Shown piece by piece: positions 38,208-43,212 of a stretch of 54,777 bases of DNA. A model generated the notes under the pieces. It did not search any database, was not told where the DNA came from, and was given only the letters and a program-made list of their open reading frames with translations. A program made the translations under genes and the position numbers. How positions within the stretch are numbered: position 1 is the stretch's first letter; each line of letters begins with the position of its first letter. The stretch comes from Desulfuromonadaceae bacterium (lineage in GTDB: Bacteria > Desulfobacterota > Desulfuromonadia > Desulfuromonadales > JAAYDE01): assembly GCA_012512925.1 (NCBI GenBank), contig JAAZDE010000151.1, positions 1 to 54,777 of the forward strand, given 5' to 3'.

Positions 38208-38663
38208 CGTTTGCTTTTTCCTCATTATGAATTTTTTGTTTCTTGTTCCCTGTGGCCATCCGGAGAAGGTTCCGTTCGGTGTGGTTAAAATAGCACTCCT
38301 GGCCAAAGGTGGAGGAGATATCCTGGAATCAGGGGTCGACCTGAATTCAATGCAATTTTCTGTCTTTTGGAAAGGAACAGGGACATCAGTCATTCTTTCA
38401 AGAGGTTTTCCCTCGGGATTTTGGGAGGAAAAACCCACCATTGACAACTACGCATTCTTTGGGCGAACAAAAAATAAAATTATAATCTAAAAAAAGAAAA
38501 TCAGGGACGACAATACTTTTGGGCCATTTTTGTGTTAATTTTACATAATTTAAATGAAGCGTAGGGAAATAATCTGTACCAAGGGATGAAGTGGTTGAAA
38601 AAAGGAAAGGTCAGCGCCGTTTTTCGCCCAGCCATGGTATTGTTGATAAAGGAGGTTTGACTC
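38208..38663. other. AT-rich intergenic region
   Basis: About 450 bases between the divergent hybrid kinase and the small selenoprotein candidate. The part from about 38450 to 38580 is very A/T rich and should hold promoters for both directions. I cannot fix a convincing -35/-10 pair. No RNA gene or repeat was recognised. Confidence 0.45.
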
Positions 38664-38822
38664 ATGGACATGCAAGAACTGCTTATCTTTTTAGGTGTGG
38701 TGGCCCTTTATTTCATTCTCAACCGCTGGGTGTTGCCGCATTTCGGCATCCGCACCTGACTTTCCAAAAGCTGCGATCTTCCGGTGCGGAAGAACAAAGA
38801 GGAAGAGGAGAAGGAAAAATAA
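38664..38822 (+). CDS. Candidate selenoprotein: small membrane protein with in-frame TGA (Sec) at codon 32
   Basis: AAAGGAGG stands seven to eight bases before ATG 38664. Codons 1-31 encode one membrane helix (LLIFLGVVALYFILNRWVLP) and PHFGIRT, then TGA (38757-38759). The same frame continues for 20 codons, LSKSCDLPVRKNKEEEE..., to TAA at 38820. The tail has a Cys five positions after the TGA and a charged end. A hairpin with a GGU apical loop lies 24 bases after the TGA (SECIS-like), and a terminator starts four bases after the TAA, so the transcription unit fits the longer product. If decoded, the protein is 52 residues with selenocysteine at 32. If not, it is a 31-residue membrane peptide. 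The selA/B/C/D genes are not in the window. Confidence 0.7.
38777..38793 (+). promoter_or_regulatory. SECIS-like hairpin downstream of the in-frame TGA
   Basis: TCTTCC pairs with GGAAGA around the loop GGTGC; the outer G and C of that loop may also pair, giving seven base pairs. The apical loop begins 24 bases after the TGA, inside the 16-37 base range of bacterial SECIS elements, and has G in its first two positions as SelB-binding loops usually do. It lies within the open frame, as bacterial SECIS elements must. Confidence 0.6.
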
Positions 38823-38825
38823 TGG

Positions 38826-38858
38826 GGGCGGCCCTTCGCGGGCTGCCTCTTTTTTTTG
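38826..38858 (+). terminator. Rho-independent terminator after the selenoprotein candidate
   Basis: GGCGGCCC pairs with GGGCTGCC (one G-U pair) around TTCGC and is followed by a run of eight T. It starts only a few bases after the TAA at 38820, which supports the view that the gene extends beyond the TGA. Confidence 0.85.
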
Positions 38859-38992: not shown

Positions 38993-40432
38993 TTAGAGAA
39001 AGGGAGAAAAGAGCTTACAAAAAGAGTCCCGGAGCCTAACGGGGAGGGGGCGCCCATCGACCTCCTCGAGAGTGACCTGGCGGGAGTTTCTGCGGGTCTG
39101 TTCGAAGTGCTCAGACAGAATTTTGACCGTTTCGGGATCGAAGACTTCCACATTGAATTCAAAATTGAGGCGCAGGCTGCGGGGGTCCAGATTGGCCGAG
39201 CCGACCAGGGCGAAGAAGGTGTCGACCAGCAGCAGCTTGTTATGGGCAAAGGGGGGTGGACGGTAGTAGATGCGGGTTCCATATTCGAGGAGCTCCCAGA
39301 GATAGGCCCGGGTCGCCCAGTGGACGTAGGGAAGATTGCTGCGTCCGGGCAGAATGATCTCCACCTTGACGCCGCGCAAGGCGGCGCTGTTGATGGAGGA
39401 GATCAGATCGCGGTCGGGGATGAAGTAGGGGGTCATGATCCGCACCCGCTGGCGGGCGCAATCAAGGGCACCCACCATCAGCCAGCGGAGTTTCTCGAAA
39501 TCCTCGTTGGGACCGGCGCTGATCCCCCGGCAGTAGGCGGTGCAGTCTTCCAGCGGTGGTGAATGAGGGCGGGTGCTGACCTCCTCGCCGGTGGCGAAAT
39601 GCCAGTCCTCAAGGAAGGTGTCCTCAATCTGACCGACCACCGGTCCTTCCGCCTGAAAATGGAGGTCGATCACATCCCCCCGGTCGATCTTACTGGAGAG
39701 CCAGCTGCGGCCGATGTTGATGCCGCCCGTGAAGCCGATTCTTCTGTCCACCGTAAGCAGTTTGCGGTGGTTGCGCAGATGGAGATGGAACATCCCCCAG
39801 GAGGTGAAGGGGGGGAGAAAACGAACGGTGCGCACGCCGGCCCGGTTCAACAGCGAGCGGGCTGAGGGTAAGGCATAACGCTCCCCCAGGGCGTCGACCA
39901 GGACACGGACATCGACCCCGCGCTGGGCGGCGGCCCCCAGCTCATTGATGAAGCGCCGCCCGATCCGGTCGCTGCCAAAGATGTAGGTGGACAGGAAGAT
40001 GCTCTCTTCGGCTTTGGCAATGGCCTGCAGCATGGCCGGGAAAATCTCGTTGCCGTTGATCAGGGGCCGCAGACGGTTGCCGGCGGTCAGCGGCCGCCGG
40101 GTGATGGCGTTGGAGAGATGGAGCAGGGCGGCGAGATTCTCCGCGGGGAAGGGAGGGACCGGATCGGCGGAAATGACGAAATGCCGGGACGCGGGGGTCA
40201 GCCACTGCATGCCGCGGCCGCTGGTTTGCCAACTGCGGGCGCGGGTGCGGATGCGGTTGACCCCAAGCAGCCAGTAAAGGCTGAAGCCGATGCCGGGAAT
40301 GAAAAGGCAGATGAGGATCCACACCAGGGCGGCGCGGGGATCGCGTCGGTAGAGCAGGGCGTGGCCGGCGGAGAAGAAGCCGGCCATCAGCAGTAACAGA
40401 CCAAATAGCCAGTTCAGGTGATGAAGGAGCAT
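38993..40432 (-). CDS. cls: Cardiolipin synthase (phospholipase D family)
   Basis: Cls condenses phosphatidylglycerol molecules into cardiolipin. The 479-residue protein has two N-terminal membrane helices (LNWLFGLLLLMAGFFSAGHA and ALVWILICLFIPGIGFSLYWL) and two HKD motifs: LRNHRKLLTVDRRIGFTGGIN and FAHNKLLLVDTFFALVGSAN. I chose ATG 40432, with GGGAGG about ten bases upstream and the first membrane helix right behind it; a longer frame exists without support. It starts 31 bases after trxB on the same strand. It could be ClsA- or ClsB-like; the two helices favour ClsA. Confidence 0.92.
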   Translation of the reverse strand: MLLHHLNWLFGLLLLMAGFFSAGHALLYRRDPRAALVWILICLFIPGIGFSLYWLLGVNRIRTRARSWQTSGRGMQWLTPASRHFVISADPVPPFPAENLAALLHLSNAITRRPLTAGNRLRPLINGNEIFPAMLQAIAKAEESIFLSTYIFGSDRIGRRFINELGAAAQRGVDVRVLVDALGERYALPSARSLLNRAGVRTVRFLPPFTSWGMFHLHLRNHRKLLTVDRRIGFTGGINIGRSWLSSKIDRGDVIDLHFQAEGPVVGQIEDTFLEDWHFATGEEVSTRPHSPPLEDCTAYCRGISAGPNEDFEKLRWLMVGALDCARQRVRIMTPYFIPDRDLISSINSAALRGVKVEIILPGRSNLPYVHWATRAYLWELLEYGTRIYYRPPPFAHNKLLLVDTFFALVGSANLDPRSLRLNFEFNVEVFDPETVKILSEHFEQTRRNSRQVTLEEVDGRPLPVRLRDSFCKLFSPFL

Positions 40433-40463
40433 CTCATTATGGCCTCCCGAAGCCGAAACTCCA

Positions 40464-41405
40464 CTACGGATTTTCCTCCAGGAACCGTTCCGCCTGAATT
40501 GCCGCCATGCATCCGGAGGCGGCGGCGGTGATTGCCTGGCGGAAATGGGGGTCCTGGACATCGCCGGCGGCGAAAACCCCGGGGATATTGGTCCTGGCCC
40601 CGGTGCCGGTCAGCAAATAGCCGCGCTCCTCCATCTCCACCTGCCCCTTAAACAGACCCGTGTTGGGGATATGGCCGATGGCGATGAAAAGACCGTCGCA
40701 GATCATTTCCTCCTCCTTGCCGGTGGCAACGTTCTTGAGGCGGATGCCGGTCAACCCTTTCTGTTTGTCGCCGAGGATGGCGCTTACCACCGAATCCCAG
40801 TGAAAGACGATCTTCTGGTTGGCGAAGGCCCGCTCCTGCAGGGGCGGCGAGGCGCGAAGGGCATCGCGGCGGTGGATGACATGGACCTTGCTGGCGAAAC
40901 GGGTCAGGAAGGTGGCCTCCTCCATGGCCGTGTCCCCTCCTCCGACCACCGCTACTTCCTTATCGCGGTAAAAGAAACCGTCGCAGGTGGCGCAGACCGA
41001 TACCCCCTTGCCGTAGAGTTCCTTTTCGTGAGGGAGGTCGAGCAGGCGGGGGGAGGCGCCGGTGGCGATGATGAGGGTGCGGCAACGATAGCTGTCGTCG
41101 CCGGCATGGATGGTGAAGGGGTAGGAATCAAGTTCTACCTTGGTCACCTCCCCGGCCAGGAAGCGGGCGCCGAAACGGCGCGCCTGTTTTTCCATCTCCT
41201 CCATCAGCACCGGTCCGTCGATCCCCTCGGCGAAACCGGGGTAATTCTCCACCAACGTGGTGGTGGTCAGCTGCCCTCCCGGCTGGCTGCCGTGAATGAC
41301 CAGCGGCTCCAGATTGGCGCGCGCCGCGTAGATGGCGGCGGTGAGCCCTGCCGGTCCCGACCCCAGGATGATGACGTTCAGTATCTCGTTATCTTTTTTC
41401 TGCAT
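40464..41405 (-). CDS. trxB: Thioredoxin reductase
   Basis: Low-molecular-weight NADPH-thioredoxin reductase, 313 residues. FAD motif: VIILGSGPAGLTAAIYAARA. Redox-active disulfide: SVCATCDGFFYRDK. NADPH motif: VAVVGGGDTAMEEATFL. C-terminal FAD motif: GVFAAGDVQDPHFRQAITAAASG. AAGGAGG stands six bases before the ATG at 41405, and the 16-base overlap with lipA argues for coupling. No thioredoxin gene lies in the window. The normal CATC active site makes alternative roles such as flavin ferredoxin reductase unlikely. Confidence 0.95.
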   Translation of the reverse strand: MQKKDNEILNVIILGSGPAGLTAAIYAARANLEPLVIHGSQPGGQLTTTTLVENYPGFAEGIDGPVLMEEMEKQARRFGARFLAGEVTKVELDSYPFTIHAGDDSYRCRTLIIATGASPRLLDLPHEKELYGKGVSVCATCDGFFYRDKEVAVVGGGDTAMEEATFLTRFASKVHVIHRRDALRASPPLQERAFANQKIVFHWDSVVSAILGDKQKGLTGIRLKNVATGKEEEMICDGLFIAIGHIPNTGLFKGQVEMEERGYLLTGTGARTNIPGVFAAGDVQDPHFRQAITAAASGCMAAIQAERFLEENP

Positions 41406-42264
41406 CGACAACCTCCTTGAACTGTTCTTCGGCATGGTAGGAAGACCTTACCAGGGGCCCGGCCTCGACATGGGCGAAGCCGATTTTCAGACCTTCCTTT
41501 TTGATTTCATCGAATTCCTCGGGGGGAACATAGCGGTGGACCGGATAGTGATTTCCGGTTGGCCGCAGGTACTGCCCAACCGTCAGCAGCCGGCAGCCGG
41601 CTTCGGCCAGATCGTTCATGGCTTCCGTCAACTCCCGGCGGCTCTCTCCCATCCCCAGCATCAGGCCGCTTTTGACCGGAATCGCCGGGTAGGTGTCGCG
41701 GACGCGGGCCAGCAGTTCGAGGGAGCGCCGATAGTCGGCCGCCGAACGGACCTGTGGGTAGAGTCGCGGCACCGTTTCCAGATTGTGCCCAAGAATATCA
41801 GGGCCGGCGGAAAGAATTCGTTGCAACGCCCGGGGATTTCCGCCCAGGTCGGGGATGAGCAACTCCACCCGGCAGGAGGGCGCGGCGCGGCGGATTTCAC
41901 CGACTACGGCGGCGAAAACGGAGGCGCCTCCGTCGGCGAGATCATCGCGGGTCACCGAGGTGATCACCGCGTGGCGCAACTCCAGTTCGGCGAGAGCGGC
42001 GGCCACCTTGGCCGGTTCTTCAGGCTCGGGGGGAAGGGGCTTGCCATGGGCGACGTTGCAGAAGGCGCAGTCGCGGGTGCAGAATTCGCCGAGGATCATG
42101 AAGGTGGCCGTTCCCCGGCTCCAGCATTCCCCCTGATTGGGGCAGGCGGCGCTGCGGCAGACCGAATGGAGGCCGTGGTCGCGGTGCCATTTTTCTATGC
42201 GGGCCGCCTTGGGGCCGCCTTGCGGGCGGACCTTTAGCCAGGCTGGTTTGCGCTCTTGCTTCAA
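41389..42264 (-). CDS. lipA: Lipoyl synthase
   Basis: A radical-SAM enzyme that inserts sulfur into octanoyl groups on E2 and GcvH proteins. The 291-residue protein has both Fe-S cluster motifs: the auxiliary CRSAACPNQGEC near residue 36 and the radical-SAM CTRDCAFC near 62. It continues with the family's HAVITSVTRDDLADGG, VLIPDLGG-type and GLMLGMGE segments. The start is TTG at 42264, giving a typical N-terminus (KPAWLKVRPQGG). lipB lies directly upstream, so the pair makes a complete octanoyl-transfer-then-sulfuration pathway. The last 17 bases overlap trxB. Confidence 0.96.
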   Translation of the reverse strand: MKQERKPAWLKVRPQGGPKAARIEKWHRDHGLHSVCRSAACPNQGECWSRGTATFMILGEFCTRDCAFCNVAHGKPLPPEPEEPAKVAAALAELELRHAVITSVTRDDLADGGASVFAAVVGEIRRAAPSCRVELLIPDLGGNPRALQRILSAGPDILGHNLETVPRLYPQVRSAADYRRSLELLARVRDTYPAIPVKSGLMLGMGESRRELTEAMNDLAEAGCRLLTVGQYLRPTGNHYPVHRYVPPEEFDEIKKEGLKIGFAHVEAGPLVRSSYHAEEQFKEVVDAEKR

Positions 42265-42331
42265 AATAAAAGACCTTTCATCTCACCAAAAATCCTCATT
42301 CCCCGAAAGCAAAAATTATAACCCTCACCAG

Positions 42332-42982
42332 TCACCATTCACCCAGATGGATACTTTCGAAAACCTCGGCGAAGCAGTGGATCACCTGCCCCTCCACCTC
42401 CTCAATCGATGGTTCTTCTCCCAGGTGTTCAGCCATGGAGGTCATCTCCACCCCGGTGAGGCCGCATGGGACAATGGCGCCAAAAGGAGAGAGATAACCG
42501 CCGACATTGAGGGCAAAGCCGTGCCAGCTGATCCAGCGCCGTACGCCAACGCCGATGGAAGCGATTTTTCTGCCGGAAACCCAGACGCCGGTGCGGCCGG
42601 CGAGCCTCTCTGCGGAAATCCCGTAACGACGCAACAGCTTTACAAGGAGTTCCTCCAGCAGCCGCAGAAACCGGTGCAGGTCGCGATTGACGAGGTCAAG
42701 GCCGACGATCGGATAGCCGATGAGCTGACCGGGACCGTGGTAGGTCGTTTCTCCGCCGCGCCGGGCACGGATTACTTCGATGCCGCGGCTTTCAAAATAA
42801 TCGTGCGGCGCCAGAGGACGGAACTCCTTCACCTTGCTGCCGAGGGTGATTACCGGCGGATGCTCGAGGAGAATCAGGAAATCGGCTGTTCCCGCTTCCC
42901 TGTGGGCCAAGAGTTGTTGTTGCAAAGCAAGGCCCGCACGGTATGAGATCCGTCCGGGCCTCAAGGTGAAAAAACCGTTCAC
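42332..42982 (-). CDS. lipB: Octanoyltransferase LipB
   Basis: LipB moves octanoyl from acyl carrier protein to lipoate-dependent proteins. The 216-residue protein carries the signature RRGGETTYHGPGQLIGYPIV (residues about 75-94), the KIASIGVGVRRWISWHG segment with the catalytic Lys, and the acyl-acceptor Cys in IVPCGLTGVEMTSM. The start is GTG at 42982, with an AGG upstream. It is followed by lipA after about 67 bases and preceded by the ferredoxin gene after 38. The LplA salvage enzyme is not seen. Confidence 0.95.
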   Translation of the reverse strand: MNGFFTLRPGRISYRAGLALQQQLLAHREAGTADFLILLEHPPVITLGSKVKEFRPLAPHDYFESRGIEVIRARRGGETTYHGPGQLIGYPIVGLDLVNRDLHRFLRLLEELLVKLLRRYGISAERLAGRTGVWVSGRKIASIGVGVRRWISWHGFALNVGGYLSPFGAIVPCGLTGVEMTSMAEHLGEEPSIEEVEGQVIHCFAEVFESIHLGEW

Positions 42983-43020
42983 ACCGAAACCTGTCCGATG
43001 CGGTTCGAGGTCATTCGGGG

Positions 43021-43212
43021 TTATTCAGACCAGTTGATACAGGAAACCGGGCAGTTTTTCATAACCTCCTCGATGCGGATTTCCGGAGCTCCGGCGGGGT
43101 TGTATACTTCGGCCAGGTCGAAGTGGTTGAAACGAAAAACCGCCGGAAGTGTATCCACGCAGAATCCGCAACGGATACATCTGTCCTGGTCAACAACCGG
43201 TTGCCGGATCAT
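43021..43212 (-). CDS. Small [4Fe-4S] ferredoxin
   Basis: A 63-residue ferredoxin with Cys arranged CIRCGFC near residue 12 and a distal CP pair in MKNCPVSCINWSE, enough for one [4Fe-4S] cluster. The middle lacks a second cluster motif, resembling the single-cluster Fer4-type ferredoxins of sulfate and iron reducers. GAGG stands seven bases before the ATG. It lies eight bases after the rubredoxin stop, so the two are one unit. The electron partner is unknown; LipA needs reducing electrons and lies two genes on, which is only an association. Confidence 0.92.
   Translation of the reverse strand: MIRQPVVDQDRCIRCGFCVDTLPAVFRFNHFDLAEVYNPAGAPEIRIEEVMKNCPVSCINWSE

Follow-up and report, generated by a model that had tools for sequence, protein, structure and literature searches.

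A small membrane protein from a Desulfuromonadaceae bacterium, very likely a selenoprotein of an apparently undescribed family decoded through a SECIS-type hairpin

Introduction

Does a TGA codon in a very short reading frame of a Desulfuromonadaceae bacterium (assembly GCA_012512925.1, contig JAAZDE010000151.1) end a 31-residue peptide, or is it read as selenocysteine (Sec) within a longer membrane protein? The whole stretch of DNA analyzed, 54,777 nt in length, is called the window. An initial annotation, made from its sequence alone, had proposed a small membrane protein that is probably a selenoprotein and had stated that the proposal would be refuted if the genome had no sel genes, if no homologue had Cys or TGA at this place, or if tail sequence and hairpin were not conserved in close relatives. 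The analysis presented here makes it highly probable that the gene encodes a small selenoprotein with a single membrane pass, which belongs to an apparently undescribed family of the phylum (Desulfobacterota), is decoded through a SECIS hairpin, and has a probable Sec32-Cys37 redox site.

Results

Reading and translating the sequence confirmed the layout that had been described, with the frame MDMQELLIFLGVVALYFILNRWVLPHFGIRT-U-LSKSCDLPVRKNKEEEEKEK encoding 31 residues that include one membrane helix, the UGA, and 20 further residues that include Cys37 before TAA is reached (Table 1). The codons around the UGA are ATG...ACC TGA CTT TCC AAA AGC TGC GAT CTT CCG GTG CGG AAG...TAA. The strong ribosome binding site is present as claimed and its spacing favors a start at ATG 38664 over the alternative ATG 38670 (Met3), the equivalent of which is used in most homologues; a Shine-Dalgarno-like motif lies at most 20 nt upstream in 150 of 159 distinct copies of the gene. 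The terminator does follow the second stop codon, as had been stated, but begins about 2 nt after TAA and not four. Judged by eye, the flanking genes encode a hybrid histidine kinase and a cardiolipin-synthase-like protein of the phospholipase D type; as both are on the opposite strand, the putative selenoprotein gene is probably monocistronic. On the minus strand, the downstream region 38993-43212 of the window appears by eye to encode the phospholipase-D-type protein, a thioredoxin reductase, lipoyl synthase, lipoate-protein ligase B, and a small ferredoxin.

Table 1. Positions of the putative selenoprotein gene and its elements in the window
Feature	Position	Strand	Basis
Putative selenoprotein gene, 52 residues, Sec very likely at 32	38664..38822	+	sequence read and translated; homologues
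Shine-Dalgarno AGGAGG	38650..38655	+	8 nt upstream of ATG 38664
Codons 3-26, predicted transmembrane helix	38670..38741	+	AlphaFold2 helix and conservation (W/Y16, N20, W22-x-LP)
UGA codon 32, very likely Sec	38757..38759	+	UGA at the site in 159/159 distinct copies
Cys37 codon, likely redox partner of Sec32	38772..38774	+	Cys at U+5 in 140/159 copies
Bacterial SECIS-type hairpin UCUUCCG-GUG-CGGAAGA, loop 38784-38786	38777..38793	+	folding, controls, covariation
Stop codon TAA, true stop	38820..38822	+	sequence
Intrinsic terminator, GC-rich hairpin and T8 run (38850-38857)	38824..38857	+	sequence, folding

The source assembly (2.6 Mb in 213 contigs, estimated to be 100% complete) possesses all four sel genes, the absence of which would have refuted the proposal: selC was recognized as tRNA-Sec at 72 bits (cut-off 47), selB at 376 bits, and selA (607 bits) and selD (365 bits) are adjacent to each other. 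The selD gene of this genome itself contains an in-frame UGA, downstream of which lies the hairpin GGCGCAG-GUU-CUGCGCC, and the loop types of selD, G-[GUU]-C, and of the small gene, G-[GUG]-C, are alike.

Searches reading through stop codons revealed homologues in 163 of 195 close relatives, a few of them weak or truncated at contig ends, and a profile matched 171 of 395 genomes sampled from across the phylum, corresponding to 115 of 246 genera. From the DNA that was fetched 159 distinct copies were recovered, and in all of them UGA occupies the same codon and is flanked by conserved residues on either side, so that homologues with TGA at this place, without which the proposal would have failed, are at hand. 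The core motif is LP[RK]xG[IV]xT-U-[ML]SxxC, and the residues conserved relative to U are W at -16, N/Q at -12, W/Y at -10, L at -8, P at -7, G at -4, T at -1, S at +2, and C at +5. In most of the copies lacking Cys at U+5 this residue is slightly shifted; a Cys is present somewhere in the tail of 157 copies and absent from that of two, and the U-x4-C spacing is changed in about 12%. Members are only about 44-66 residues long. The most divergent copies, obtained with a broader profile, have different tails but kept the UGA, and some occur as tandem pairs, namely L241 with L246 (G402:C109:8701-8996) and L245 with L247 (G233:C1:158924-159247). Five genomes (G162, G166, G167, G188, and G139) possess two separate copies each, with UGA in all copies read. 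In one divergent copy (L242, G257:C1:1542167-1542301), which reads ...GIQPCUQIPFPP..., Cys immediately precedes Sec and there is no Cys at +5.

When the genome lists for selB, which was detected in 353 of the 395 phylum genomes, and for the small gene were compared by eye, the small gene was present in 163 of the 353 genomes with selB versus 8 of the 42 without it (Fisher p 0.0008; neither this nor any other statistical test was corrected for shared ancestry). The 8 gene-bearing genomes without selB are all drafts, most of them with selB-bearing congeners.

In the first 12 codons past the UGA, which include the Cys, pS is 0.26, as compared to 0.42 before the UGA and 0.55 further on. For the far tail pN/pS is 0.47, and these values indicate that the tail is translated. 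The low pS directly after the UGA together with the pN/pS of the far tail indicates that an RNA constraint and a protein constraint both act, and the conservation of these 12 codons, a lack of which would have counted as refutation, is evident.

The 7-bp stem UCUUCCG/CGGAAGA starts 17 nt past the UGA, and the distance of 24 nt that had been given for the beginning of the hairpin holds only for its apical loop. The same region also encodes L-P-V-R-K. With -7.6 kcal/mol and its loop at 24 nt, the window hairpin meets the published SECIS rule of G in the first two loop positions, a loop 16-37 nt past the UGA, and a minimum free energy of -7.5 kcal/mol or lower (PMC13188914). Although folding of the mRNA past the TGA thus yields the predicted hairpin, its significance in the window alone is only mild (z -2.2 with the terminator and -0.4 without it). 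An Rfam scan gave no SECIS match. Chance is excluded because the hairpin is conserved across relatives, and not by the window statistics. When the same proteins were encoded by redrawn synonymous codons, hairpins of -5 kcal/mol or lower were found in 22% of these controls versus about 90% of the genuine copies, and hairpins of -7.5 kcal/mol or lower in 8% versus 62%; mean energies in two clade groups were -8.4 and -8.3, with controls at -3.8 and -2.6, respectively, and the effect persists when the LP-type clade and all other copies are considered separately. The loop is located 23-24 nt past the UGA in most copies. Among 45 copies of the LPVR/LPG type, the third base of the Leu39 codon and the first base of codon 43 form T-A in 24 cases and C-G in 20, with a single mismatch (covariation score 0.210 versus 0.110 shuffled, 0 of 500 shuffles, and 20 double changes at one pair), and owing to this compensatory pairing the choice of Lys or Glu at residue 43 tracks the hairpin. 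Another group has the same stem in a shifted reading, with LPRDGS replacing LPVRK, and other clades have LGDRG or IEDRS, palindromic at the same place; the sequences that encode these differing peptides can each fold into a hairpin of this type. The hairpin is therefore conserved in relatives with compensatory base changes, and the third ground for refutation does not apply.

These data bear on two further explanations. If the UGA simply terminated a 31-residue peptide, with the similarity downstream of it due to chance or to untranslated RNA, the weak hairpin statistics in the window alone would be understandable; however, the codon is UGA and never UAA or UAG in 159 copies, SxxC and the charged tail are conserved in frame with true stops at varied distances, and pN/pS is below 1 past the UGA. 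This explanation is scarcely credible and was rejected, as the invariant UGA and the tail constraint already contradict it. UGA, hairpin, and terminator are consecutive in the window, an arrangement that would also suit a selenium-sensing leader peptide in which the terminator and the genes beyond it are controlled by whether the UGA is read. As the genes that follow show no conservation and mostly lie on the opposite strand, the strongest conservation resides in the protein, including helix and Cys, and the far tail is under purifying selection, a leader peptide is very improbable, and the candidate was rejected because of the protein-level conservation and the unconserved downstream genes.

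Since sel genes, an invariant UGA, and a covarying hairpin are all present, the proposed selenoprotein is well supported and insertion of Sec at codon 32 is very likely, an inference from sequences for which no expression, mass-spectrometric, or selenium-labelling data exist. As judged by the comparisons, the UGA is decoded as Sec by means of the downstream SECIS hairpin and the selA-D of the genome, and translation runs to the TAA before the terminator. At low selenium, translation would be expected to halt at the UGA, leaving a 31-residue helix without active site.

Replacement of the TGA by a Cys codon in relatives, which had been expected to lend support, was not encountered. Among about 570 genomes of the phylum not one Cys form was found, even with a profile from divergent members and in genomes lacking the gene. 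The homologue searches imposed no UGA, and a Cys codon would have received at least the same score. Inspection of 24 relatives whose match was weak or absent revealed contig-end fragments or chance similarities, and those weak matches of the phylum sample that could be inspected were UGA copies or chance, in neither case a Cys form. The usual selenoprotein criterion of Cys-containing homologues, which is not strictly defining, is therefore not met. Within the limits of one phylum searched, the family is Sec-only; we consider it probable that such a Sec-only family occurs in nearly half of the sampled phylum genomes and that the peptide following its active site is shaped by the encoding of the SECIS hairpin.

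AlphaFold2 predicts a helix at residues 3-26 and an extended, disordered tail of low confidence. Lys/Arg amounts to 0.4 on the N side of the helix versus 4.2 on its C side, and from this positive charge it is inferred that Sec faces the cytoplasm: according to the positive-inside rule the helix would insert N-out/C-in, and Sec32 would lie about 8 residues past the membrane, in the cytoplasm, where a flexible tail rich in Lys and Glu begins. Sec is a selenolate at neutral pH. By inference, Sec32 and Cys37 most probably form a reversible selenenylsulfide, which would act as a membrane-tethered redox relay or as a reductase for a partner that is not identified. Inferred from the U-x4-C spacing, in which four residues between Sec and Cys permit a selenenylsulfide, such a membrane-tethered relay is the most likely role.

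No neighboring gene is conserved across the phylum, synteny being clade-specific only, and no partner was identified. A phospholipase-D-type (cardiolipin-synthase-like) gene is located on the other strand in 18 loci. Neighbors with a thioredoxin fold show a mild excess (3-5 of 78), which is a hint and not a result, and genes of the thioredoxin, TlpA, CcdA, and ArsR types adjoin a few distant copies, too few to decide. In L070 and L138 the gene immediately upstream on the same strand encodes an ArsR-type regulator, and in L077 and L127 a thioredoxin; these genes overlap the small gene or are separated from it by no more than about 25 nt. Geobacter-like copies (L059, L167, L168, L172, L174, L193, L195, and L196) have a CcdA-type gene on the other strand about 0.5-1.3 kb further downstream, and in several of these loci it follows a VOC-family-like gene; this arrangement possibly reflects clade synteny only.

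Two other roles of a selenoprotein have to be considered against this background. Sec and Cys might bind or transfer a metal or metalloid at the membrane without any selenenylsulfide cycling, as several catalogued small selenoproteins with adjacent Cys and Sec are tied to mercury or arsenic handling (PMC13188914) and an ArsR-type regulator overlaps the gene start in L070 and L138; however, metal-resistance neighbors are not conserved and there is usually a single Sec and a single Cys with no other conserved His or Cys, which leaves this role possible but unlikely. Alternatively, the protein might belong, as a small subunit, to a larger membrane complex in which Sec relays electrons or serves as a cofactor ligand. 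The conserved polar and aromatic helix positions (W -16, N/Q -12, W/Y -10) would be expected for packing against a partner, and NrfD or cytochrome b561, which are redox membrane proteins, are among some same-strand neighbors, but as no adjoining partner gene is conserved across the phylum a subunit function remains doubtful.

Discussion

Pfam and NCBIfam yielded chance-level matches only, both for the window protein and for sets of 22 and 60 diverse members, and phage and plasmid collections contained no match to the small selenoprotein. A 2026 catalogue comprises 119 prokaryotic selenoprotein families, and the family motif is absent from its Table 1 (PMC13188914). No description of the family was found in the open-access literature and, as far as such papers go, it is apparently undescribed.

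The discovery of selenoproteins depends largely on Cys homologues. According to the 2025 deep-Sep study, Cys homologues now seem to exist for all known selenoproteins, and its filter may discard selenoproteins without them (PMC12013277). The small gene is carried by what is apparently the Desulfuromonas soudanensis of that study (L157), for which the deep-Sep table, as we read it, contains only previously known families (PMC12013277). Being common, Sec-only in the phylum searched, and endowed with a very short frame before the UGA, the family would therefore be missed by standard selenoprotein filters. If it is confirmed, selenoproteomes are undercounted, Sec is seemingly irreplaceable in this case, and a minimal membrane selenoprotein becomes available as an experimental model. 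In addition, the Lys or Glu at residue 43, which follows a base pair, clearly illustrates how an RNA signal can bend a protein sequence.

Like OS_HP3, OS_HP4, GOS_B, GOS_C, TsoA-TsoY, SaoC, and others in the 119-family catalogue, the protein is small, and these are often of unknown role; several of the catalogued small selenoproteins also have a Sec/Cys pair, whereas LP[RK]xG[IV]xTU[ML]SxxC is listed for none of them (PMC13188914 Table 1). With selenoproteins decoded by SelB and a bacterial SECIS, such as SelD and formate dehydrogenase, the family shares the UGA, the sel machinery, and a downstream hairpin with G at the start of a loop 16-37 nt from the UGA, and with SelD of the same genome it shares the G-GU loop type, whereas it differs from them in its length of about 44-66 residues, its one membrane helix, and in that no Cys form was found. 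Eukaryotic SELENOS and SELENOK possess a single-pass anchor and carry Sec near the C-terminus of a flexible cytosolic tail, with a proposed selenenylsulfide redox role. We know of no sequence relationship between them and the small selenoprotein, and the likeness is one of layout only, with Sec near the membrane in the small selenoprotein and near the C-terminus in SELENOS and SELENOK.
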